Shown here one piece after another: positions 3,121 to 29,763 of a stretch of DNA of 33,568 bases. Source of the DNA: Candidatus Pelagibacter sp. (GTDB taxonomy: Bacteria > Pseudomonadota > Alphaproteobacteria > Paracaedibacterales > CAIOTO01); assembly GCA_013823725.1 (NCBI GenBank), contig PNMQ01000004.1:1-33568 (forward strand). The letters run 5' to 3'. Each line of letters starts with the position of its first letter. The first letter of the stretch is position 1. A program made the position numbers and the translations under genes. Below the pieces are notes generated by a model. That model was given only the letters and a program-made list of their open reading frames with translations. It searched no databases and was not told the DNA's origin.

Positions 3121-4491
3121 TTAAATGTATTGTTCCCGATCAGCAAAAATTTTTTCTAGTCTTGGAACAACTTCACTTCTAGCTAATACAATGATAATAT
3201 CGCCCACGTTTAAAATCATATTTTCAACGTTCATATGAACAACATCTTCGCGGATAATAGTCACAATTTTTAGTTTCTTTTTGATAGAAATATCATTAAT
3301 CGTTAAACCAATAACCATACTTCTATCAGAAATCTCGATTTCAAACAAATCGCATATACCTTCTTGAATGGCGTATGCTGTTCGAAGTTTAGCTTGAGAC
3401 AAGAACTCGAGCAATACAGATATCACCATGGATGCAGGTGTTATTACAGAGTCCACACCAAGCGATGTAATGGGGCGAATATAATCTGCACGATTCAACA
3501 ATACGATAGAACGTCTGCAACCTAATTGTTTAGATAGCAGAGACGACAATATGTTCACATTATCTTCGTTTGTTAAAGCTAACACGCATTCAATTTCGTT
3601 TATGTCTACACTATTAAAAATTTCTTGGTCAAGAGCATCTCCGTTTAATATTTTTGTGTATTCAAACTGAGCAGCTAATTTAAGGCATAATTCTGGATTG
3701 CTTTCAATCAATGTAATATCAAAATTAACCCCAGACTTTTCAAGATCTAAAGCAACGCGAGAGCCAATTGAACCACCACCCATAATTAATATGCGGCGGC
3801 TATTTTTAGAGATAAAACCAAAATTTTCCATAATTGAATCAACATTGCTAGAATGCACAAGTACATAAACAATGTCATCTTTAAAAAACACATCTTCCTT
3901 GTCCGGAAATACGATATTACCGTTTCTCATGATGCATACAATTCTAAAATCAAAATCAATTTGGGAAGCTAAAAAACGAATAGGTGTATTAATAAAAATT
4001 GAATCTTCACATATTTTAAAGCTTATAACTTTAAGCAAATCAAGAACAAAAGGAATAACTTCAAGGGCACCTTGAACTCTAGCATTACGAACAAGAGATC
4101 GAGCTATTTCAGCTTCTGGTGATAAGATAAAATCAATATTAAATTCTTTTTTTAAAAGATCACCACGACCTTCTTTGATATAGCACTCTTTTCTAATTCT
4201 TGCAATTTTCTTTCCAGAAAATAAACACGAGGATGCAATTTGGCAGGCTAAAATATTTATTTCATCAGAACCAGTTACTGCAATTAAAACATCACAATCT
4301 TGAATTTGTGCCTGTTCTAAAACATCAGGATCTGTTGCAGATCCTGATATCGTTCTTACGTCTAATTTTTCTGTAATTCTAGATAGAAGTTTTTGGTCGT
4401 GATCAATAATGGTAATACTGTTTTCATTGCGCGATAAAAATTTCGCAACAGTTAAACCTGTTTTGCCAGCACCAATAATAACAATTCTCAT
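3121..4491 (-). CDS. trkA: Trk potassium uptake regulatory protein TrkA
   Basis: Peripheral NAD(H)-binding gating subunit of the Trk K+ uptake channel on the cytoplasmic face of the membrane; its membrane partner TrkH/TrkG is not in the window. The 456-residue length matches the family (about 458). It has the usual duplicated plan: a Rossmann RCK-N domain with GAGKTG at residues 7-12, an RCK-C domain, then a second RCK-N beginning near LIMGGGSIGSRVALDL and a second RCK-C ending in IIVLARSEVVPRLEKIF. The start is 12 nt after the ntrX stop, and the ntrY-ntrX-trkA order is a common alphaproteobacterial arrangement. The hfq and hflX genes that often follow are not here; the operon ends facing the formyltransferase gene across 38 nt. 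Confidence 0.95.
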   Translation of the reverse strand: MRIVIIGAGKTGLTVAKFLSRNENSITIIDHDQKLLSRITEKLDVRTISGSATDPDVLEQAQIQDCDVLIAVTGSDEINILACQIASSCLFSGKKIARIRKECYIKEGRGDLLKKEFNIDFILSPEAEIARSLVRNARVQGALEVIPFVLDLLKVISFKICEDSIFINTPIRFLASQIDFDFRIVCIMRNGNIVFPDKEDVFFKDDIVYVLVHSSNVDSIMENFGFISKNSRRILIMGGGSIGSRVALDLEKSGVNFDITLIESNPELCLKLAAQFEYTKILNGDALDQEIFNSVDINEIECVLALTNEDNVNILSSLLSKQLGCRRSIVLLNRADYIRPITSLGVDSVITPASMVISVLLEFLSQAKLRTAYAIQEGICDLFEIEISDRSMVIGLTINDISIKKKLKIVTIIREDVVHMNVENMILNVGDIIIVLARSEVVPRLEKIFADREQYI

Positions 4492-4503: not shown

Positions 4504-5934
4504 CTATGCTTCTTCAGCTTCATAAAAATCTTCATCTTCTTTTCCTTTGAAGTCGTAAACTTTCAAAGAACGTAATTTTCGATGCAGAGCAGATCTTTCC
4601 ATTCCAATAAAGCGCGCTGTTTGAGAAATATTTCCAGCAAAGCGTGATACTTGTGTCATTAAATAATCTCTTTCAAAAGCTTCTCTTGCTTCGCGCAAAG
4701 GAAGAACTATTACATCAGAGTTTTTAGCTTGCCATCCTGATTGAAAGCTATAGTTTGACGACAATTCTTGGGGTAATTCAGAAGCTAAAATAGGATCTCC
4801 ACTATTATTTTTGGACATAATTAAAATCCAATCAATCACATTTCTTAATTGAATAAAATCCCCAGGCCAATTATAAGATTGTAAAACAACCAAAGCTTCT
4901 TCTGAAAAAAAGCGGCTTTTTGAATTAGAAGCTTTTGCTGCATCATCCATAAGTTTTTGAGCAATGATGGATATGTCTGTTGAACGATCCCTTAATGACG
5001 GAACAACTATCTGATTAACAGACAATCGATAATACAAATCTTCTCTAAAGTTACCTTTAGAAATTTGATCTTTAACATCTTCAGAAGTGCCACATATAAT
5101 TCTTACATCAAATTCCACCTTGCGGTCTGAACCAATTCGACAAAAGGCTTGGTCTTGCATTATTCGTACAAGTTTGGATTGTAAGGGCAAAGGTAATTGC
5201 GTTATTTCATCAAAATACAAAGTTCCCAAATGCGCCTTTTCAAGCAATCCAATTTTACGCGGTGCATTTGAATCCGATCCAACAATTTCTGTTCCAAATA
5301 GTTCTTCTTCGAATTTATTAGGATGTAACGCGCCACAATTAATAGAAACAAACAAACCTTTTGAACGATCTGATTGTTGATGAATTTCTCGTGCAATCAT
5401 TTCTTTACCTGCACCGAATGGTCCAACAATCATAGTTTTACTGAGTGAATCAGCAGTACTTTTTACAGCTAATTTCAACTGATTCGTAATCTGAGTGTTT
5501 CCAAGCAAATTAACAGCAGAAATTCTAGCTTTCAGTTTCAATTCTTCATTTTCACGTTGCAAATTAGCAGATTCAATCGCACGCCCTATAACAAGTAAAA
5601 GACGATCAGATTGAAATGGTTTTTCTATAAAATCATAAGCACCTTTTTTAATAGCCGATACAGCCGTCTCAATTGTAGAGTGACCACTAATCATGATAAC
5701 AGGAACAAAAGCATGATTTCTTTTAATGGTTTCTAAAATCTTGATACCGTCTCTTTCACCATTGCCAAGCCAAACATCAAGTAATACCAAATGAGGTTGC
5801 CTATGTTTAATCATATCTAGAGCAACAAGCCCTGATGGCGCAGAACGAGTAACATAGCCTTCGTCTTCTAAAATACCAGTTATTAAGTTTCTGATATCAT
5901 CTTCATCGTCAACAACTAAAATTTCGTAAGACAT
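4504..5934 (-). CDS. ntrX: Response regulator NtrX (receiver, AAA+, Fis-type HTH)
   Basis: DNA-binding response regulator of the NtrYX system, 476 residues. The receiver domain has acidic residues D9 and D10, phospho-acceptor D53, and lysine K105 in EKPF. The AAA+ domain has Walker A GPFGAGKE (about 171-178), a Walker B TLYFDE (about 238-243) and REDLYYRLSV. A Fis-type helix-turn-helix near the C-terminus includes FIGMERSALHRKLRSL. The sigma-54 contact loop GAFTGA, expected after ELFG, is absent: the sequence runs ELFGTEIVGSDSN. Loss of this loop is known for alphaproteobacterial NtrX proteins and implies regulation that does not act through sigma-54 activation. The gene begins 12 nt after ntrY and should be cotranscribed with it. 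The identification is secure; the regulon is unknown. Confidence 0.94.
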   Translation of the reverse strand: MSYEILVVDDEDDIRNLITGILEDEGYVTRSAPSGLVALDMIKHRQPHLVLLDVWLGNGERDGIKILETIKRNHAFVPVIMISGHSTIETAVSAIKKGAYDFIEKPFQSDRLLLVIGRAIESANLQRENEELKLKARISAVNLLGNTQITNQLKLAVKSTADSLSKTMIVGPFGAGKEMIAREIHQQSDRSKGLFVSINCGALHPNKFEEELFGTEIVGSDSNAPRKIGLLEKAHLGTLYFDEITQLPLPLQSKLVRIMQDQAFCRIGSDRKVEFDVRIICGTSEDVKDQISKGNFREDLYYRLSVNQIVVPSLRDRSTDISIIAQKLMDDAAKASNSKSRFFSEEALVVLQSYNWPGDFIQLRNVIDWILIMSKNNSGDPILASELPQELSSNYSFQSGWQAKNSDVIVLPLREAREAFERDYLMTQVSRFAGNISQTARFIGMERSALHRKLRSLKVYDFKGKEDEDFYEAEEA

Positions 5935-5946
5935 CTGCTATTCCTT

Positions 5947-7830
5947 TTACATATGATTTTCATCGGTTGTTAAAACTTCTTCATCTCTATTAACGGGTAG
6001 ATCAATTTCAACTCTTGCACCCCCAAGTAAAAGGCTTTTAGACAAAGAAATTTTTCCAGCATGGTCGGAGACAATTTTGTAAACGATCGATAAACCTAAC
6101 CCTGTTCCATTTTGCCTTGTTGTGAAGTATGGTTCAAGTAATTTATTTACATCATCAACTAAAAAACCAGGACCATTATCATCAACTTGAATATTTATTC
6201 TATCACGATAACTAATCACTTTAATAGTAATTTGAGGCTGTTGTTCTTGTAAAATATTTTCTTCAATAGCATGCGTCGCATTAAGCAATAAATTTGTTAG
6301 AACTTGAATCATCTGATAAGGATCAACAAAGGCTATAAAATTTTTTCCTTCGGGAATTAAACTATAAATAACATCTTTTCTGGATTGTTTTTGAATAAGT
6401 ATCGCTTCACTGATTAAATCAACTATATTCACGCGTTCAAACTTTGGTTCAGGCATACGTGCAAAATTTGAAAACTCTGTAACCAGGTTTCCTATGTTAG
6501 AAACTTGCCTGATAATGGTATCGATACACATTTCAAAAGTTGTAGGATCCTTTTCGATTTGATGAAGATATTTTCTTTTCAATCTTTCAGCAGACAGCTG
6601 AATTGGCGTTAGCGGATTTTTAATTTCATGCGCAATTTTTCGAGCAACATCAGACCAAGTCGCCTTCTTTTCAGAAATAATTAAATCCTGTTTTTGCTGA
6701 AACAATTGTATAATCATTTTATTAAAGGTGCGACATAAGTCATCTATTTCGTTTTTAGATTCAGAAGCATTAATCCTAACACTAAGATCACCGCTACTAA
6801 CAAGCTCAGAAGCTTGAATTAATTCTGAAATAGGTTTTATCAACTTATCTGCAAACGCAAGCCCCCACAAAATTGAAGTTAACAATAAAAGCAATAACCC
6901 AATGCAAAAGAAGAAGATAAACACCATTTGTATTTCTTCTAGTTTTTGTGACGATAAACGATAATCTTTAACAGCATGTTTAGTGTGGTCTACATGTTGC
7001 AAAACAACAGGATCAATAAGCTTTCCAATTAACAAATAGGTGCTCGTTAAATGATCTAACTTTAAGATAGCCCTAACACGGTCTTTTGATTCGGTAATGA
7101 CAAAATTTTCTTTTTTAGTTTTTTTAATTTCTTTATTCAAATCTTCCAATAAAGGAAGAAATGTTAGGAATGAACGCGCCAATAATTCAAAATTTCTTTT
7201 ATTCTCTTTAAATACCAATATCTCTGAAAGCTGGCGATCATTAACAGCTTGATTTAAAAAATGTGTTAGGTCATCCGTCTTTTCTGCATAATATGCTATG
7301 TTCGGTCGCAACTGTTCAGCCAATGCATAAATATCATAACTAATAGATTTTTTATGTTCCTTCAAATACGCAGTTGCCACCTCATGTGCTTGATTCAACG
7401 CATCTTTCACTGGTTTTGCCAACCATGTATTTACCCCAGCATTCAAAAAATGAAATGAAAAATAAGCCAAAACAAGAGCAGGGAAAGTACAACTAAAAGA
7501 AAAGAAAGAAATAATTTGAAAATGAAGTTTTGATCCTTTTTTTTGCTTATTAATCCATAAATTTCTAATACGGACTGCAATTAAAAAAATCAAAAAAAGG
7601 ATAATTAAAATATCGAGAGCAAAGAAGAACATTACCCAAAAATCTTTACTAAGACCTTTAGAAATATTTTTGATCAATGACATATACGTCATTGATGCCA
7701 ACACAATAGCTATGGATGATAATGCAAATATAAATCTTGTTTTCAAACGACTAAAGTCATGAAGAACTTCAGACGAGAAGAACTTTGCAATTTGCAAACA
7801 ATATTTTTCTCTAAGATTTTTCCAGAGCAC
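5947..7830 (-). CDS. ntrY: Sensor histidine kinase NtrY
   Basis: Inner-membrane sensor kinase of the NtrYX two-component system, 627 residues. The N-terminus has three closely spaced membrane helices (around residues 32-52, 62-86 and 102-125), then an extracytoplasmic segment of about 170 residues. A fourth helix (around 300-322) leads into a HAMP domain (LIKPISELIQASELVSSGDLS). The dimerisation/phosphoacceptor box HEIKNPLTP lies near residue 400, followed by an ATPase domain with an N box (NATHAIEE), DNGPGF and GTGLGLSIV. An obvious PAS core between HAMP and HisKA, found in many NtrY proteins, is hard to see here: the HAMP runs almost directly into the kinase core. The 5' end overlaps the end of the upstream OPA-family transporter gene by 20 nt, so translation is probably coupled. 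Confidence 0.93.
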   Translation of the reverse strand: MLWKNLREKYCLQIAKFFSSEVLHDFSRLKTRFIFALSSIAIVLASMTYMSLIKNISKGLSKDFWVMFFFALDILIILFLIFLIAVRIRNLWINKQKKGSKLHFQIISFFSFSCTFPALVLAYFSFHFLNAGVNTWLAKPVKDALNQAHEVATAYLKEHKKSISYDIYALAEQLRPNIAYYAEKTDDLTHFLNQAVNDRQLSEILVFKENKRNFELLARSFLTFLPLLEDLNKEIKKTKKENFVITESKDRVRAILKLDHLTSTYLLIGKLIDPVVLQHVDHTKHAVKDYRLSSQKLEEIQMVFIFFFCIGLLLLLLTSILWGLAFADKLIKPISELIQASELVSSGDLSVRINASESKNEIDDLCRTFNKMIIQLFQQKQDLIISEKKATWSDVARKIAHEIKNPLTPIQLSAERLKRKYLHQIEKDPTTFEMCIDTIIRQVSNIGNLVTEFSNFARMPEPKFERVNIVDLISEAILIQKQSRKDVIYSLIPEGKNFIAFVDPYQMIQVLTNLLLNATHAIEENILQEQQPQITIKVISYRDRINIQVDDNGPGFLVDDVNKLLEPYFTTRQNGTGLGLSIVYKIVSDHAGKISLSKSLLLGGARVEIDLPVNRDEEVLTTDENHM

Positions 7831-9223
7831 GAGAACGATGATTCCAAGTTAAAGAAAAAAAGAAAGCTGCTAGAATACCCGCAACAACAATTGACATAAA
7901 GGCCATATCCCAGCCTTCCTTTTCGGCAATAATGGCAAGGCCTACACCTGCAAAAGAACTTCCTGCATAACCAAATGCCCCTGTCAAACCGGTTGCTGTT
8001 CCTGCTGCTCTTTTTGATGCAAAATCAGATGCAGCAACGCCTACCAAAACTTGTGGGCCAGTAATTAAAAAACCTATACCTATCATACAGAAAAAATGGG
8101 TAGATACAGAACCAGAAGGCGATTTCCAAAAAACCAAAGCTACTATGGAAAGAAGAACCATGAACACAGCACCAACTCTCCCTCTATACCCCTTTGTGAA
8201 CCTGTCAGAAAGATAGCCTGCACAAACACCGCCCAAGATACCAGCAATATCATAAACCGCTGACTGTGCAGCAGCAGTGTACAGCGAACTGCCTTTGGCT
8301 TCTCTCAAAAAAGTGGGTGCCCAGTTAAAAATAGACATCCTTACGTAGTAGACAAAAAAATTCGCCAAACACACATACCACACCAACCTATTATTAAAGA
8401 TTTTCTTAACCAGTAGTTCCGTTAAAGGCAAATCCTTATCGGGATCGTCATAGTTAAGTCCATGATGATGTTCGATTGAAGGCAACCCTAAAGATTCCGG
8501 TGTATCACGTAATCTATTATAGAGAAAAATGCTTAACCCAACGCACAAAACACCAGGTATTAAAAACAGATATCTCCAACCAAAATGAAGGATAATAAAG
8601 GGGGATATCAACAACATAAAACCAGCACCAATTTGCTGCGATGAATTCCAAACCGCCCATTTTGTAGCAAGTTCTTTTGGACTAAACCAATGATTAAGCA
8701 ATCGCGCACAAGGAGGCCAACCCAATGATTGAAAACAGCTATGAAGCACCCACATTGACATTAAAAATGTTAGTGATTGCGAAAAACCTAGTGTAAAATT
8801 GATCACTGCTGATGTTAACAAACCAAAAGCCATCAAAAAACGAGCACTATTTCTATCGCCAAAATAGCCGGCAATAATTTTTCCTACACCATAAATAATA
8901 TTAGCAGCAGAAATAACCGCACCCAATTGAATTTTTGAATAGCCTAATTCTGAAGAAATATAAGGCATTGCTGCAGAAAAATTCTGACGCAACATGTAAA
9001 ATCCAGCATATCCTATCATCATGGAATACATGATGCGAAAACGCCAATAGTTGAATAACCCTTTGTTTACGGCTTGTTGAGATTCAGCACAAGCCAATGC
9101 ATCTGAATGCACGTTATCAGAAATCAAATGATCGCTTTGGGTCAAAGAAGATTCTGCTGTCAAAACTTTTATTCCATCTTTTGAAAAAAATTTATATAAT
9201 ATCATAGTATAAGCAGCTAGCAT
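7811..9223 (-). CDS. OPA-family MFS protein (UhpC/GlpT-like transporter or sensor)
   Basis: A 470-residue, 12-helix membrane protein of the organophosphate:phosphate antiporter family (UhpT, GlpT, PgtP, UhpC). Family signatures include FYMLRQNFSAAMPYI, GDRNSARF, GWPPCARLLNHWFSPKE, RLRDTPESLGLPSIE, WAPTFLRE and AAGTATGLTG. The two substrate-binding arginines of GlpT/UhpT have counterparts in MLRQNF and YYVRMS. The binding-site histidine of GlpT (in a WN..HN motif) is replaced by Gln (WNSSQQIGAG). An extra stretch of about 55 polar residues precedes the first helix, so the start may lie further in; an internal Met is at residue 7. It overlaps ntrY by 20 nt. It could import glycerol-3-phosphate or sugar phosphates, or act as a UhpC-like sensor for NtrY; sequence alone cannot decide. 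Confidence 0.85.
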   Translation of the reverse strand: MLAAYTMILYKFFSKDGIKVLTAESSLTQSDHLISDNVHSDALACAESQQAVNKGLFNYWRFRIMYSMMIGYAGFYMLRQNFSAAMPYISSELGYSKIQLGAVISAANIIYGVGKIIAGYFGDRNSARFLMAFGLLTSAVINFTLGFSQSLTFLMSMWVLHSCFQSLGWPPCARLLNHWFSPKELATKWAVWNSSQQIGAGFMLLISPFIILHFGWRYLFLIPGVLCVGLSIFLYNRLRDTPESLGLPSIEHHHGLNYDDPDKDLPLTELLVKKIFNNRLVWYVCLANFFVYYVRMSIFNWAPTFLREAKGSSLYTAAAQSAVYDIAGILGGVCAGYLSDRFTKGYRGRVGAVFMVLLSIVALVFWKSPSGSVSTHFFCMIGIGFLITGPQVLVGVAASDFASKRAAGTATGLTGAFGYAGSSFAGVGLAIIAEKEGWDMAFMSIVVAGILAAFFFSLTWNHRSRALEKS

Positions 9224-9291
9224 ACAGTGCTTTTAAGAAACAAATGTGAGATATGTTTTTTTTCATTCCTAACTTTCATACAATTCGTATA

Positions 9292-9343
9292 TAGTTAATA
9301 TTATGTTAACAGATTATAATATCAAAGATAAAAGATATTACAA
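9292..9343. promoter_or_regulatory. Divergent promoter region between OPA operon and rsmA
   Basis: This AT-rich 140-nt gap separates two diverging operons. It contains ATTATAAT at 9313-9320, which reads as a perfect TATAAT -10 box on both strands. For rsmA (+) the -35 at 17-nt spacing (9292-9297) is poor (3 of 6 matches). For the OPA/ntrYX operon (-) TTGTAA at 9338-9343 lies 19 nt away, which is suboptimal. A shared -10 core serving both directions is possible but unproven. Confidence 0.3.
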
Positions 9344-9363
9344 AAATTATCGATTTCAAAAAC

Positions 9364-12884: not shown

Positions 12885-13328
12885 CTGCTTAAAACTGTTA
12901 AACTTTGGGCGGTATCTTCCATTCATCATACTGATGAAGGAAAACTATTTCAAGAATACACCAAACGATTTCGTTTCAATTTTGATCAGATTGAGATTAA
13001 AGATCACAACAACACAACGAGTGATCTTCTAAAATTAATCAAAAAGATGACACCCTCAGAGCAATTAATTTTATTAGATGAGCATGGGAAAGAAAATACA
13101 ACTTTTGATTTTTGCGAATTTCTTAATAAAATAAGTCAGAACAACCAAACACCTGTGTTTTTAATAGGTGGCCACAATGGACACCATCCTGATATTAAAA
13201 AATGCGCCCATCATGTTATGTCGCTCAGTAAAATGACTTTACCTCATCTTTTAGCACGAGTTTTCCTGGTTGAACAATTGTACAGATGTCAGCAGATCTT
13301 CTTGAATCACCCTTATCACAGGCAGTAA
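12885..13328 (+). CDS. rlmH: 23S rRNA (pseudouridine-1915) methyltransferase RlmH, CTG start
   Basis: SPOUT-family enzyme that N3-methylates pseudouridine 1915 in helix 69 of 23S rRNA. The C-terminal half is unmistakable: FLIGGHNGH, LSKMTLPHLLARVFLVEQLYR and the terminal NHPYHR. The first ATG in frame (13047) would give only 93 residues and remove the first strands. The frame is open upstream to 12870 and encodes TVKLWAVSS, a match to the family N-terminus (E. coli MKLQLVAVG, from memory), and EYTKRF, so the gene must begin earlier. No ATG, GTG or TTG exists in that stretch. CTG at 12885 lies 9 nt after GGAG (12872-12875) and 1 nt after the rsfS stop, giving 147 residues, close to the usual 155. 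Coupled translation from rsfS is likely. Confidence 0.9.
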   Translation: MLKTVKLWAVSSIHHTDEGKLFQEYTKRFRFNFDQIEIKDHNNTTSDLLKLIKKMTPSEQLILLDEHGKENTTFDFCEFLNKISQNNQTPVFLIGGHNGHHPDIKKCAHHVMSLSKMTLPHLLARVFLVEQLYRCQQIFLNHPYHRQ

Positions 13329-15077: not shown

Positions 15078-16246
15078 TTGGCATTGTCCCAAAACGGCCA
15101 AGCACGCAACACAAAGTCTCCATTTAAAAAAAAGATAACTAGAAACAAGTGCCTATCAAGAATATCATTACAAGAAAAAATCGGACAAATGCTTATTGTA
15201 GGCTTTCATGGAACTTCATCTTCTGATCGTTTGGTCAAAAGATTACGTCATCAAATGGAAAAAGGGCTTGTCTCAGGATGCATCTATTTCAAAGAAAACA
15301 TACAAAATAAAACACAATATCTTTCTCTAAGCACCTTTCTGACACAGTCAAAGTCAAAACATAAGCTTCTTTTTGCAGCAGATCTTGAAGGAGGAAAAGT
15401 AAATAGATTCAAAAACATAGAAGGATTAGGTGAAGATTTATTTTTAAGTCCATTTTCCGTAGCGCAAAAATATAAAAACACAAGCATTGAAAAATATAAT
15501 TATGGACAGATCAAAGATTACTACAGCGACATCGCAGCAAAAATCAAAGGCTTAAAAATTAATTATAATTTGCACCAACTGTTGATGTTCACGACCCCGA
15601 TTGTCCCGTTATAGGTAAATTCGGAAGAGCCTTTTCAAAGTCTTCTGCAGAAGTAACAGCATTTGCCAGCATTTTCATGCAAGCTATGCACGAACATAAT
15701 ATTTTATGTTGTATCAAACATTATCCTGGTCATGGACGATCTAAAGAAGATTCACATGTTGGTTTTGTAGATGTGACACCCTTTCATAAAAATGATGAAT
15801 TAGTCCCCTATCAAATACTTACAAGACCCCGGCATGGCTCTAACGATGTGGACAGCATCATGTTAAGTCACGTTATACATAAAAGGATAGACCCTCGTCA
15901 TCCAACTTCTCTTTCTCCCATTCATGTTGCCAACATTAGAAAACATTATAATGGTGTTATTGTTAGCGATGATATGATAATGGGGGCAATTTTGAAAAGG
16001 AATCCTGACTGGAGAAAAGCCTTAGCAGACGGCATTGTTCAAGCTATCAATGCTGGAGTAAATATCGTTATTATCTCCGACATGCCTTACGCATCTAAAG
16101 ATATAAAAAAATATCCCCCCATTAAAAACTTAGTCGATTTTTTTCATCGAACCGTTCAAAATGCAATTAGAAATAATAAAATTGATCTTCAAAAAATTGA
16201 TGATAGTTTCACGAGAATCATCAACATGAAAAAGAAACTGGCATAA
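15078..16246 (+). pseudogene. nagZ: GH3 beta-N-acetylhexosaminidase (NagZ-like), frameshifted
   Basis: NagZ removes N-acetylglucosamine from muropeptides during peptidoglycan recycling. Two frames together encode one GH3 domain. The first (to a TAG near 15612) has ISLQEKIGQMLIVGFHG and LLFAADLEGGKVNRF. The second has KHYPGHG followed by EDSH (the His/Asp pair of NagZ), a SDDMIMGAI nucleophile block, and AGVNIVIIS. The switch lies at about 15562-15571: frame 0 gives KINYNLHQLL, while reading from GCA 15572 in the other frame gives APTVDVHDPDCPVIG, then GRAF, the expected continuation (INYNLAP..DV). One base is therefore missing in TATAATTT. Restored length is about 389 residues, longer than typical NagZ (about 340). 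The TTG start is doubtful; ATG 15056, one T out of frame, would add a signal-peptide-like MTFILFS. It may be a decaying gene or a sequence error. Confidence 0.8.
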
Positions 16247-17625: not shown

Positions 17626-17985
17626 ATGAATTTTGAAAACGCTATACAAATATATATTCAATGGAAAAAACAACTTCAAAATTGCATTCATCATAAAACT
17701 ATTGGAAACCTGGATGCTAATCATATTTGTCAAGATAATCTATGCGAACTTGGGGAATGGTTATACGGTGACCACCCTGAAAAAATATCTAAAGATACTG
17801 TTTTCAAAGAAATCAAAGAAAAGCACAAAAGGTTTCATGAAATCACTGGAAAAATTTTAAAACGAATTGAAAATAACGAAGCACTTGATCCAAACAAAGA
17901 ATTAGGCATTGAATCTGAATATGGTAAAGTCTCTAGCAAGTTGATTGCTTTACTCATGAGAATGCGTGTAAAAACCTCATCATAG
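17626..17985 (+). CDS. Solitary CZB (chemoreceptor zinc-binding) domain protein
   Basis: A 119-residue cytoplasmic protein that is essentially one CZB domain. These domains usually sit at the C-terminus of chemoreceptors or diguanylate cyclases and bind zinc through three His and one Cys. The pattern is visible: a WKKQL helix, CELGEWLYG (Cys40), and HKRFH (His67 and His71). The first expected ligand, a His three residues before the Trp (H-x-x-W), is Tyr10 here (Y-I-Q-W), so metal binding may be altered; extra Cys20, Cys35, His22, His23 and His33 could compensate. A chemoreceptor gene lies about 9 kb downstream, a possible functional partner. A TATAAT at 17588-17593 lies about 32 nt upstream of the ATG, but no good -35 is seen. 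Confidence 0.75.
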   Translation: MNFENAIQIYIQWKKQLQNCIHHKTIGNLDANHICQDNLCELGEWLYGDHPEKISKDTVFKEIKEKHKRFHEITGKILKRIENNEALDPNKELGIESEYGKVSSKLIALLMRMRVKTSS

Positions 17986-18018: not shown

Positions 18019-19032
18019 TTATATTTTATTATTTAATTTCCTTTTCATCATCCATTGAAAGGAAGGTACTTTTGCCAAATACTGCAAAAGACCACAAGAT
18101 ATAATAATTAATAAGCCACCCATCAAGGTATTGAATTTTAGAGACTCATTAAAAATAAATACACCGATAAATAACCCAACAGGAAAACGTAAAAATTTAA
18201 AGGGAGTTAAAAATCCTGAATGCGCATAAGTGTAAGCTTGTATCAAAGTCCAATGAACAAGTCCGTAAACAATACCTGCACTTAATAATACAAAATGATC
18301 ATGAATATGCAGTGCTTTCCACTGATAGACAGCTAAAGGAAAAGCGACAAATCCCATCCCTAATACAATAAATAGTGTCGATATTAATCCATCTTGATGC
18401 AGAGAAATTTTTTTAACCAGCAAAACAGAAATAGCAAATAATAATGCAGAAAATAGAGGGAACATAAAGTATGAAGAAAAAGATCCTCCCAATGGCTGTG
18501 TAGATAATCCAACGCCACATAGTCCCAGAGCTAAAATCAAAAAATGAGATTTATAAATTTTTTCAGAAAAAAATATACTACTTCCTATGACTGTAAAAAT
18601 ACTACTTGTCATGGAAAGAGTCACAGCATTAGAAAAAGCTAATTTTTGAAGAGAATAAATCCAAAAAATATTTCCTGCAGTTCCAACGATAATGCGAAAA
18701 AACTGCCATTTTTTTTGTGCAAACAAATCAGGTGGAATGGTTCTATTTTTGTATAAAAAAATTGACAGCAGAATAATACCTGCATACATTGATTTTATAA
18801 AAAGAATTTGATAAGCATTTACGTTTTTCAAAGGTCCTGAAATAAGGGTATTTCCAAAACTACCTAAAAGTGTTGATAGAGTGATCATAAAGGCACCCCA
18901 CCAATTCCAACTTGCCGCAGATTGTCTATGTTTCACATGGATCAATCTTTGTATGATTTTTTTCAACCAATCAGCTTTCAAAATTGTAATTTGTGTACAC
19001 CGTTTGGACGTCATCGTCATTTTCAAGAGCAT
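18019..19032 (-). CDS. EamA/DMT-family inner-membrane transporter
   Basis: A drug/metabolite transporter superfamily protein with about ten membrane helices in two EamA repeats, roughly residues 45-175 and 185-320. Typical elements are an initial helix-rich TLLGSFGNTLISGPLK, then QILFIKSMYAGIILL, NAVTLSMTSSIFTVIGSSIFFSE in the first repeat, and LMGGLLIIISCGLLQYL at the end. The substrate cannot be told; members export or import amino acids, S-adenosylmethionine and other metabolites. The longest frame (337 residues) overlaps the 3' end of yebC by 62 nt, and its first 20 residues are polar. A TTG or GTG inside (for example around 18966 or 18936) may be the real start, just after the yebC stop. 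Cotranscription with yebC is likely. Confidence 0.85.
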   Translation of the reverse strand: MLLKMTMTSKRCTQITILKADWLKKIIQRLIHVKHRQSAASWNWWGAFMITLSTLLGSFGNTLISGPLKNVNAYQILFIKSMYAGIILLSIFLYKNRTIPPDLFAQKKWQFFRIIVGTAGNIFWIYSLQKLAFSNAVTLSMTSSIFTVIGSSIFFSEKIYKSHFLILALGLCGVGLSTQPLGGSFSSYFMFPLFSALLFAISVLLVKKISLHQDGLISTLFIVLGMGFVAFPLAVYQWKALHIHDHFVLLSAGIVYGLVHWTLIQAYTYAHSGFLTPFKFLRFPVGLFIGVFIFNESLKFNTLMGGLLIIISCGLLQYLAKVPSFQWMMKRKLNNKI

Positions 19033-19693
19033 CGATAAATTTCAAGATATTAGGAAAATCTTGTTCAGATTTGGTTTCAGCAGCCATAGGCTTCCAAATT
19101 AGTTTTGAAGTTGATGGATCAATACCTGATTTATTTAAGGCATCTCTAACTGTTGCGAAATTTTCAACGGTTGTATAAACTTCAACGCAACCTTCATCAA
19201 GTTGAACAACATCATCTGCATCATTTTCTGTGGCAATTTCAAAAATCGTATCAAATTCAGCATTTTCAATAAAGAAGTAACCTACTCTATCAAACAAAAA
19301 GGCAACTGAACCATCTTCACCTAATGATCCACCACTTTTATTAAAAATGGATCTTACTTCGGACGCAGTTCTATTTCGATTATCAGTCAATGCTTCAACG
19401 ATAACGGCAATACCGTCTGGACCATATCCTTCATAGCGAAGTTCCATATAGTTTGCTTGGTCTTCCCCACCAATTGCTTTTTTAAGTGCACGATCAATAT
19501 TATCTTTAGGCATATTAGCAGAACGTGCCGCAGCCAAAGCTGAACGCAAGCGAGGATTCATAGATGGATCAGGAATACCTGTTTTTGCAGAAACAATAAT
19601 TTCACGTGTTAATTTAGCAAATATTTTTGCACGTTTTGAATCTTGCGCACCTTTACGATGCATAATATTTTTAAACTGGGAATGACCTGCCAT
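18971..19693 (-). CDS. yebC: YebC/PmpR (TACO1) family protein
   Basis: A cytoplasmic 240-residue protein. The family was first described as transcriptional regulators; later work on relatives (TACO1, YebC2) points to helping ribosomes through proline-rich stretches. The signature start MAGHSQFKNIMHRKGAQDSKRAK is present (usual form MAGHSKWANIKHRK), followed by NPRLRSALAAARSANMPKDNIDRA, YEGYGPDGIAVIVEALTDNRNRT and the acidic third domain. Length is normal. The ribosome site AAGG lies 8 nt before the ATG. tRNA-Ser lies upstream on the same strand. It is not beside ruvC, the common neighbour in other proteobacteria. Confidence 0.95.
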   Translation of the reverse strand: MAGHSQFKNIMHRKGAQDSKRAKIFAKLTREIIVSAKTGIPDPSMNPRLRSALAAARSANMPKDNIDRALKKAIGGEDQANYMELRYEGYGPDGIAVIVEALTDNRNRTASEVRSIFNKSGGSLGEDGSVAFLFDRVGYFFIENAEFDTIFEIATENDADDVVQLDEGCVEVYTTVENFATVRDALNKSGIDPSTSKLIWKPMAAETKSEQDFPNILKFIDALENDDDVQTVYTNYNFES

Positions 19694-27117: not shown

Positions 27118-29763
27118 ATGCGTCGGATTATGAAATTAGTGAACACATCGTTACAAAAATTAGCAACTCATAAAAAAATATGGGTCATTGTAATTGCAAT
27201 CCTTGCTTTCAGTACTTTTTGGCATGTTTTGACAATTGAAAAACATAAAAAAGATCTGATTGCAGCAACGGAAAGTTACAAAAGCACAGCAGAAAAGGAC
27301 TTTAATTTAACGTATCAAAATATTAACGATATGATTAAACAAGTTTATCAAAAATTAAAAACCATAAGCGTTCTACCTGGTGTTAAAAATTTAAATGCTG
27401 GCAAAGATATTCCCAGCGAAGAAACCATAGAGACCATATATCAACTTTTTCACAATTTGAACGAATCTATTGCTGTTTCAAAACTGCATATCTCCACCAT
27501 TAATTCAAATGCTGAAGCATCCATAGATGACAAGCAAGCTTTGCTCAAACCATTAATGACTATCGATAATTCTATAAACTCTCTTGATAACAGCTCGAAA
27601 CGATACAGTATACTGAGCAATCAATGGAACTTAGCAAAAAAAAACAATAAATCAGCAGCAAATGAAGCTTCTGAATATCGTCAAATCAAAGAGCAAATGC
27701 AATGGTTTGAAGCAAATTACAATTCATTAGACAAAATTCAAAATGAAATACCTTTATCCAGTGGTTCTTTAACGGATAGTGATCATTTTGGAAAAACAGA
27801 TAGAAACGACTCAAGAACTATTATTTTCTCCGTTCCGTATTATGACCAAAGCGGAAAATTTAAAGGATGTATTTCAATCGTAATATCGATGAAAGAAATA
27901 GAAAAAAGACTTCCACAAAAAGGATATACACTATTTAATAAAAACTACAAAATATTTATGAAGTCCAAAAATTCAATTCAAGTGGATGCATCTAAAGAGT
28001 ATATTGAAAAAGGAACCATCGATCCAAGCTTAGTTTTTTCAAAAAATAAAGAAGTTAATTTTCACGACCCACGTAGTTCTTGGGTTTTATGGAGTGGTAT
28101 TTCAAATAAAGAATTTGAAATGGATAGCAGCTTTGTTAATCTTGAAAAATTTAATAGATTCATTCATCTTATGGTCATTGGCTGGATGTCGTTTGCATGC
28201 TTTACACAAATTAGACGAATCTTAAGAAACGCACGTGAACAAGATAAACAAAAAGCACTAGCAACTATAGGTAACTTAATCACGCGATTATCGAACGATG
28301 ATTATGAATTTGAAGTTCCCCATACCCATCGCAATGATAATATTGGAGAAGTCGCACGAGCTCTTCACGTTATGAGAGAAAAGGGAATAAGATTAATTCA
28401 AGTTCGCGCAGGACTTGATAATATCAACACATTCTTGATGATTTGTGATAATGAAAAAGTCATTCAATACGCCAATCCTTCTTTCTTACAATTTTTTAGC
28501 CGATTTTTAGGTATTCCAGCACAACAAATTATCGGAAAACCAACTTCGTTTTTGAGGAATAATATTTTGGAGAATCTGATTATTAGAGAATCTGATGACA
28601 AACAAAGACTTGAATTTGGAAATCATGTGCTAGAAGTTATGGCGTCTCCCATATTTATAGGTAATCAAGAACATGTTGGATCCGTCATTATATGCAATGA
28701 TATAACCAACGAATTACAAACCTTACAAGAAGTTGAAGCAATTGTTGACGGTGTGTTGAATGGAGACTTATCTCTAAGCATTAATACTTCCGAACAATCA
28801 GGAGCCCTTTTAAAAATTTCAATAGGTATTAATCAGTTGATCAGGAAACTATCATCAACATTTGGTGAAATCCAAAAGGTCATGTCTTCGCTTGAAAAGA
28901 ACGACTTATCACAGTTTCTTCACGATGATTACAAGGGACAATTCCTAACATTAAAAAATTCTATTAATAACGCGCTCAATGGTCTGTCTTCAACCATCAG
29001 AATTTTTAGTGATAACACTCAATTTATTGCTAAAGCAAGCAACCAAACGGTAGAAGCTCTTTCTCAAATAACCTCAGGTGCACAACATCAACTTACGTCC
29101 ATCACACAACTGGCGGAAACCATCCAAAATGCAACAATATCTATCACAGATGTTGCAAATAATACAGACAAAGCAAGCCACCTTGCACAAACATCTGTTG
29201 GATATGTGGATTCAGGGCTTATTCTGATGCAACATATGATGGAAGTGGTAAACAAGCTTGATGAAAACAGCAAACAAATTAGCACCATTACGGATACCAT
29301 TGAAAAAATTTCAAACAAAACAAACTTACTAGCCTTAAATGCTTCTATCGAAGCAGCCCGGGCGGGTGAACAAGGAAAAGGATTCGCCGTTGTTGCTGAT
29401 GAGGTTGGAAAACTAGCTATCAGCACAGCAGGATCTACGCAAGAGATTTCACAACTTGTCGAACAAGCCATGAACGGAACGAGAGAAGCATTTTTAGCCG
29501 TTTCGGAAGTGAATGAAAGTATGAGCAAAATCAAAGAATCAGTATCAACCAGTGACGACATGTTGCGATACGTCTCTCAAATTATGGATCAACAGAAAAA
29601 TACATTGCTTAACACAAATAAAAACGTATCTAGCCTTCGAGAAATCGCAAACAGTAACGCTGCAGCGTCTGAAGAAATTATGGCAACAATTCGTGACTTA
29701 AATCAAATTATCGAAAAAAACCGTATAGAAGTGAATAAATTTCAAACACGTGATACCCATTAA
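27118..29763 (+). CDS. Methyl-accepting chemotaxis protein with PAS and HAMP domains
   Basis: An 881-residue transmembrane chemoreceptor that would signal to CheA/CheW. A first helix lies at about residues 20-40, then a large extracytoplasmic sensor region (about 41-340, Cache-like in layout), and a second helix (about 344-365). Next comes a HAMP region (ending in [11 protein letters not shown]), a PAS-like domain (about 430-545, with [10 protein letters not shown] and IIGKPTSFL), a second HAMP-like linker ([23 protein letters not shown]), and the signalling hairpin. The conserved tip [23 protein letters not shown] lies near residue 744. No C-terminal CheR-binding pentapeptide is seen. No flagellar or che genes are in the window. 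The ATG is preceded by no clear ribosome site; a second ATG follows three codons later. Confidence 0.92.

Follow-up and report, generated by a model that had tools for sequence, protein, structure and literature searches.

The presence of a gene for an OPA-family protein immediately in front of ntrY and ntrX, in a 33,568-nucleotide stretch of DNA (the window) from the start of contig C2 of an alphaproteobacterial genome of 1.26 Mb, raises the question of whether this protein senses a host metabolite for the NtrY-NtrX two-component system, by analogy with the enterobacterial UhpABC cascade, or is a transporter merely cotranscribed with it. The former was proposed in a preliminary description of the locus, with the latter as a fallback. 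The gene order on the minus strand is OPA with ntrY, ntrX and trkA directly downstream, and the divergent rsmA and prmC are located upstream of OPA:

7811 to 9223, minus strand: gene of the OPA-family (MFS) organophosphate transporter, 470 amino acids from the first ATG, recognized by its ORF, profiles and structure match
5947 to 7830, minus strand: ntrY, sensor histidine kinase with NtrY_N, HAMP, HisKA and HATPase domains, annotated from GTG 7830
7795 to 7797, minus strand: TTG, the likelier start codon of ntrY, judged by N-terminus length in four family members
4504 to 5934, minus strand: ntrX, response regulator of the AAA+ type that lacks the GAFTGA loop, recognized by NCBIfam and domain profiles
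3121 to 4491, minus strand: trkA, potassium-uptake regulatory subunit and old member of the ntrYX operon, model over cut-off
9224 to 9363, no strand: 140-nt gap between OPA and rsmA, the presumed promoter place of an OPA-ntrY-ntrX-trkA transcript

The identification of all four genes agreed with the preliminary description. The OPA ORF is intact, with approximately 56 residues preceding the first conserved block of the protein, and its product is a member of the OPA family within the MFS: it matched the GlpT structure 1pw4 with E=2.4e-83, the similarity is full-length, and both phosphate-site arginines (equivalents of GlpT R45 and R269) are retained. The NCBIfam OPA models scored 203–349 bits, each under its own cut-off: TIGR00881 gave 349 bits, the GlpT model 337.7 (cut-off 632.55), the UhpC model 327.5 (cut-off 564; E. 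coli UhpC itself scores 863.7), the UhpT model 213.9 (cut-off 497) and the PgtP model 203.5 (cut-off 750). The identities, computed over approximately 435 alignment columns, were 38.6% to Staphylococcus equorum GlpT, 35.6% to Priestia GlpT, 33.6% to E. coli GlpT, 32.2% to E. coli UhpC, 25.8% to UhpT and 25.6% to PgtP. With models under cut-off and about 26% identity each, the protein belongs neither to UhpT nor to PgtP, and the supposed closeness to UhpC found no support in the identities, which are higher to all three GlpTs. Judged from its sequence, the protein is predicted to be active in transport.

The alignment with GlpT, near full-length at 34–39% identity, demonstrated that R45, K80, Q134, Y266 and R269 of GlpT are all kept, as R79, K115, Q165, Y292 and R295, respectively. 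R79, K115, Q165 and R295 are near-universal among 115 relatives, with R79 and R295 each present in 114 of them and a single gap in the remaining one. In contrast, H165, K46 and D274 of GlpT are replaced by Gln196, Gln and Asn, respectively. The change of the GlpT binding-site His to Gln had been correctly noticed in the preliminary description, but it is no UhpC mark, because UhpC keeps the His (H163), as do UhpT and PgtP. Gln occupies this position in most of the window's subclade, with His in many other relatives and Asn in some Rickettsia, so that it marks a part of the window's clade and not UhpC. The changes at His165 (to Gln) and Lys46 (to Gln or other residues) could mean either an altered substrate or altered transport. 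A true likeness to UhpC is W189, matching UhpC W156, whereas UhpC also keeps K47, which the window protein does not. The stretch RLRD-P-LGLP, taken for UhpC-like, proved not to be distinctive, since RDTP-S-GLP is found in the aligned GlpT as well.

Because a tree with DgoT as outgroup contained a branch roughly 10 changes per site in length, the protein was placed in a second tree from which DgoT was omitted (37 rows, unrooted, without chlamydial UhpC). Here the window protein joined its own family with support of 95/90 inside a 13-row clade (100/100), which was nested in a 27-row clade (100/99) of transporters from alphaproteobacterial endosymbionts, i.e., Rickettsiales including Rickettsia and Megaira, Holosporales and Paracaedibacteraceae; the relatives of the window genome and protein carry names such as Candidatus Paracaedibacteraceae (MAGs of the same family), Finniella, Odyssella and Holosporales. 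UhpC, GlpT and UhpT were each placed on branches of their own. Grouping with UhpC was rejected by the AU test for both the 13-row clade (p=0.005) and the window's family (p=1e-12), and grouping of the 13-row clade with GlpT was rejected as well (p=0.003), ruling out GlpT orthology. The comparison with UhpC, UhpT and GlpT, suggested in the preliminary description as a check, thus assigned the protein to none of them (including E. coli and Citrobacter UhpC) but to the endosymbiont clade. As the root of the tree is not fixed, this topology is compatible both with a sister position to UhpC and with a place outside all named transporters. The members of the endosymbiont clade share the phosphate-site residues and a host-associated lifestyle with the window protein, but only in the window's family is ntrY their neighbor. 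We know of no assayed member of the window's OPA clade. OPA relatives with 43–49% identity were also present in MAGs labeled as other phyla (L102, Opitutia UBA1116, and L097, a Deltaproteobacteria MAG), representing either horizontal transfer or contamination.

The 20-nt overlap of OPA with ntrY, from which translational coupling had been claimed, arises when the ntrY ORF is read from its first possible start, GTG 7830. TTG 7797 lies 13 nt past the OPA stop, has a Shine-Dalgarno-like stretch AGAGAA just upstream and gives NtrY an N-terminus of approximately the same length as in the four aligned family members; on these sequence features it is the more likely start. In the four relatives the two genes are separated by +10, +58, +58 and +10 nt with no overlap in any of them, and the overlap, which depends on the start codon chosen and is not conserved, was rejected as proof of translational coupling. 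The OPA-ntrY junction showed no terminator-like site, and matches resembling promoters were no more frequent around OPA than in shuffled sequences. Cotranscription of OPA with ntrY-ntrX-trkA is likely from this layout.

Several other genes of the window also deserve mention. A nagZ-like gene of glycoside hydrolase family 3 (15078–16246) is split into two ORFs, which suggests a broken gene or a frameshift, and an RlmH-like SPOUT methyltransferase ORF (13047–13328) matches only the C-terminal part of its family. With ORFs called from the first start codon, the EamA transporter ORF (18019–19032) overlaps the upstream same-strand yebC ORF (18971–19693) by 62 nt. A methyl-accepting chemotaxis protein (27118–29763) and a separate ORF with a chemoreceptor zinc-binding (CZB) domain (17626–17985) are unexpected in a small symbiont-like genome.

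The distribution of the OPA-ntrY pair was followed through the 42 genomes of the order. An OPA orthologue was found in 39 of them (exceptions: G002, G007 and G014) and NtrY in 41, with G007 and G014 having NtrY without any OPA orthologue. In the window's family (f1) OPA adjoins ntrY in all five testable genomes (G000, which is that of the window, G001, G003, G004 and G005), with G002 left out of the count since its contig ends in ntrY; among the 42 genomes no such adjacency was found in the other families. In a scan with one genome per species, adjacency was present at four of the 80 loci, all from the four window-family relatives, and absent at the other 76; at least 600 bases were available on both sides at 73 of the 80 loci. 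The adjacency, therefore, is neither chance nor specific to one strain, and it is restricted to a single family.

The neighborhoods of the two genes outside this family were different. OPA follows PBP1A without ntrY in f7 and is located directly behind dnaA in f8 (L034, L035 and L041) and at 17 other loci; at the remaining loci it follows other genes. In a Holosporales group from rumen and termites, OPA is found directly behind dnaA, where a distance of only some 40 nt often separates the two matches (L055, L058–L062, L064–L066 and others), and a candidate DnaA-OPA fusion in L071 resolved into two ORFs divided by a stop. The operon ntrY-ntrX-trkA, known from alphaproteobacteria, is found gene for gene in this order in f4, f6, f7 and f8 with no OPA gene in front, and the participation of trkA is thus not the new arrangement it was taken for. 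In f2, f4 and f6, ntrY-ntrX(-trkA) is preceded by dus and a short Fis-like HTH ORF, with OPA absent from the cluster, and elsewhere in the order it is found near hsp33 or clpB. The Fis-type ORF between dus and ntrY encodes 93–95 amino acids (L135:5677-5964, L137:2625-2906 and L138:6022-6306) and is possibly an ntrC remnant.

Four members of the window's family have the order PBP1A-OPA-ntrY-ntrX(-trkA), which makes the OPA-ntrY junction look like the seam left by a single rearrangement of two older blocks. In the window genome OPA-ntrY is kept and the link to PBP1A is lost; its PBP1A-like gene is on the same contig, at a distance of about 280 kb. In G001 a gene for the type VI secretion protein TssF was observed near the PBP1A-OPA-ntrYX block (L126:10400-12226). 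Judging from these gene orders, the pairing appears to have arisen by a rearrangement specific to this lineage. The persistence of the pair in the window despite the lost PBP1A neighbor could hint at selection on it, and we consider it rather unlikely that OPA and ntrYX form a functional operon without direct sensing, retained because NtrYX and sugar-phosphate uptake gain from being expressed together or from NtrX autoregulation. Such an operon would fit the conserved block in the four members and the role of sugar-phosphate uptake as a precursor supply for peptidoglycan and LPS, as well as the role of NtrYX as an envelope regulator in other alphaproteobacteria, with control of envelope composition in Rhodobacter according to work cited in PMC9275681. 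However, PBP1A-OPA occurs without ntrYX in f7 and OPA stands behind dnaA elsewhere, the window itself has no PBP1A link, and in one small family shared descent alone is sufficient to explain the pair.

The same adjacency was the starting point for the sensor proposal, in which the OPA protein would bind an external sugar phosphate and switch NtrY directly, leading to phosphorylation of NtrX. E. coli UhpC is a sensor of glucose-6-phosphate that is itself able to transport. In Salmonella, UhpC senses glucose-6-phosphate and switches UhpB, resulting in UhpT expression (PMC11077982). In the window an OPA gene, a kinase gene and a regulator gene follow one another at short spacing, an order conserved in its family and kept after the change of the upstream neighbor, and NtrY, like UhpB, is a membrane histidine kinase paired with a response regulator. 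The order in E. coli, however, is uhpA-uhpB-uhpC-uhpT, with uhpC downstream of uhpB, the opposite of what is seen here. The partner domains also differ: UhpB is composed of MASE1 and HisKA_3 and UhpA is of the LuxR type, whereas the window NtrY retains its own NtrY_N region in place of MASE1, followed by HAMP and HisKA, and NtrX is of the AAA+/Fis type. The NtrX model NF051870 gave 570 bits on the window NtrX against a cut-off of 600, by far the best family. The GAFTGA loop, which is needed for sigma-54 activation, was absent from NtrX in all nine members of the order compared.

A further point in favor of an OPA input to NtrY is that no PAS domain was found in the window NtrY by domain profiles, in which, together with the missing GAFTGA loop of NtrX, it departs from the alphaproteobacterial ntrY-ntrX-trkA operon. 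PAS was present in the scanned members of f6 (L137) and f4 (L138) and not found in those of f1, f2, f7 and f8. Since f2, f7 and f8 lost PAS with OPA located elsewhere, the loss does not follow the adjacency, and it was rejected as a sign that OPA had replaced the PAS input. We give hardly any credence to a recruitment of the OPA transporter as a metabolite input of NtrY in this one family, in which it would substitute for the lost PAS and let the host sugar-phosphate supply set the NtrX output. Direct switching of NtrY by a UhpC-like sensor is highly improbable as well, considering that all other families of the order have NtrY without an adjacent OPA gene and that it is present in two genomes, G007 and G014, with no OPA orthologue at all. 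Moreover, a query with the OPA protein found no second OPA gene in the window genome: the sole other match was an MFS protein with 22% identity, best recognized by TIGR00893 at 113 bits, so that a sensor would have no UhpT to induce. The clade, the domains of the partner proteins, the missing target transporter and the absence of linkage in other families all led to the rejection of a UhpABC-like cascade.

The reading that remains, that of a transporter, leads to the question of its cargo. OPA transporters are described as a route by which endosymbionts obtain host sugar phosphates, and they are reported from putatively endosymbiotic Alphaproteobacteria (PMC11257099). The window genome has PGI and PFK, and a pyruvate kinase gene lies in the window itself. 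Searches for glucokinase, ROK kinase and PTS EIIC, the three types of sugar entry covered, detected none in this genome and, across the order, 0, 1 and 1 (over cut-off) among the 42 genomes, respectively. This combination points to a host hexose phosphate as the most likely cargo, albeit PFK and PGI may run in the gluconeogenic direction. The main alternative is glycerol-3-phosphate or dihydroxyacetone phosphate, and transport of these or another triose/C3 phosphate instead of hexose phosphate is a tenable, if tentative, possibility: the identity to GlpT is slightly higher than to UhpC and clearly higher than to UhpT, Rickettsia OPA relatives belong to the same larger clade, and a GlpT is reported to be highly conserved in Rickettsia, for which import of glycerol-3-phosphate and dihydroxyacetone phosphate is known (PMC5615194). 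However, the genome encodes its own GpsA and PlsY, so import of glycerol-3-phosphate is not required, and the step that is missing is the entry into glycolysis through PGI and PFK.

Taken together, the locus very probably contains an ordinary OPA transporter of host sugar phosphate, of a type widespread among alphaproteobacterial symbionts of eukaryotes, rearranged to a position before ntrY-ntrX-trkA in one family, in line with the fallback of the preliminary description. The protein would be a secondary transporter that imports a phosphorylated metabolite of the host against phosphate, and the imported compound, most likely a hexose phosphate, would feed Pgi and Pfk. It would represent the order-wide transporter of the Paracaedibacteraceae-like/Holosporales group rather than a dedicated sensor. 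A rearrangement, whose direction we infer, would have joined the end of the PBP1A-OPA block to the old ntrY-ntrX-trkA operon in the ancestor of the window's family, so that OPA became the first gene of the operon, probably cotranscribed with it.

The transporter, then, is of a known kind and has a lineage-specific neighbor, and the finding as it stands carries little weight beyond annotation; a sensor cascade, if true, would have given NtrYX a new input. The best-hit names UhpC, GlpT and PgtP carried by members of the window's OPA clade are better read as "OPA transporter, substrate unassayed". The gene set of the window genome, with PGI and PFK but no detected glucokinase, ROK kinase or PTS, makes the uptake of host hexose phosphate a testable proposal for the order.
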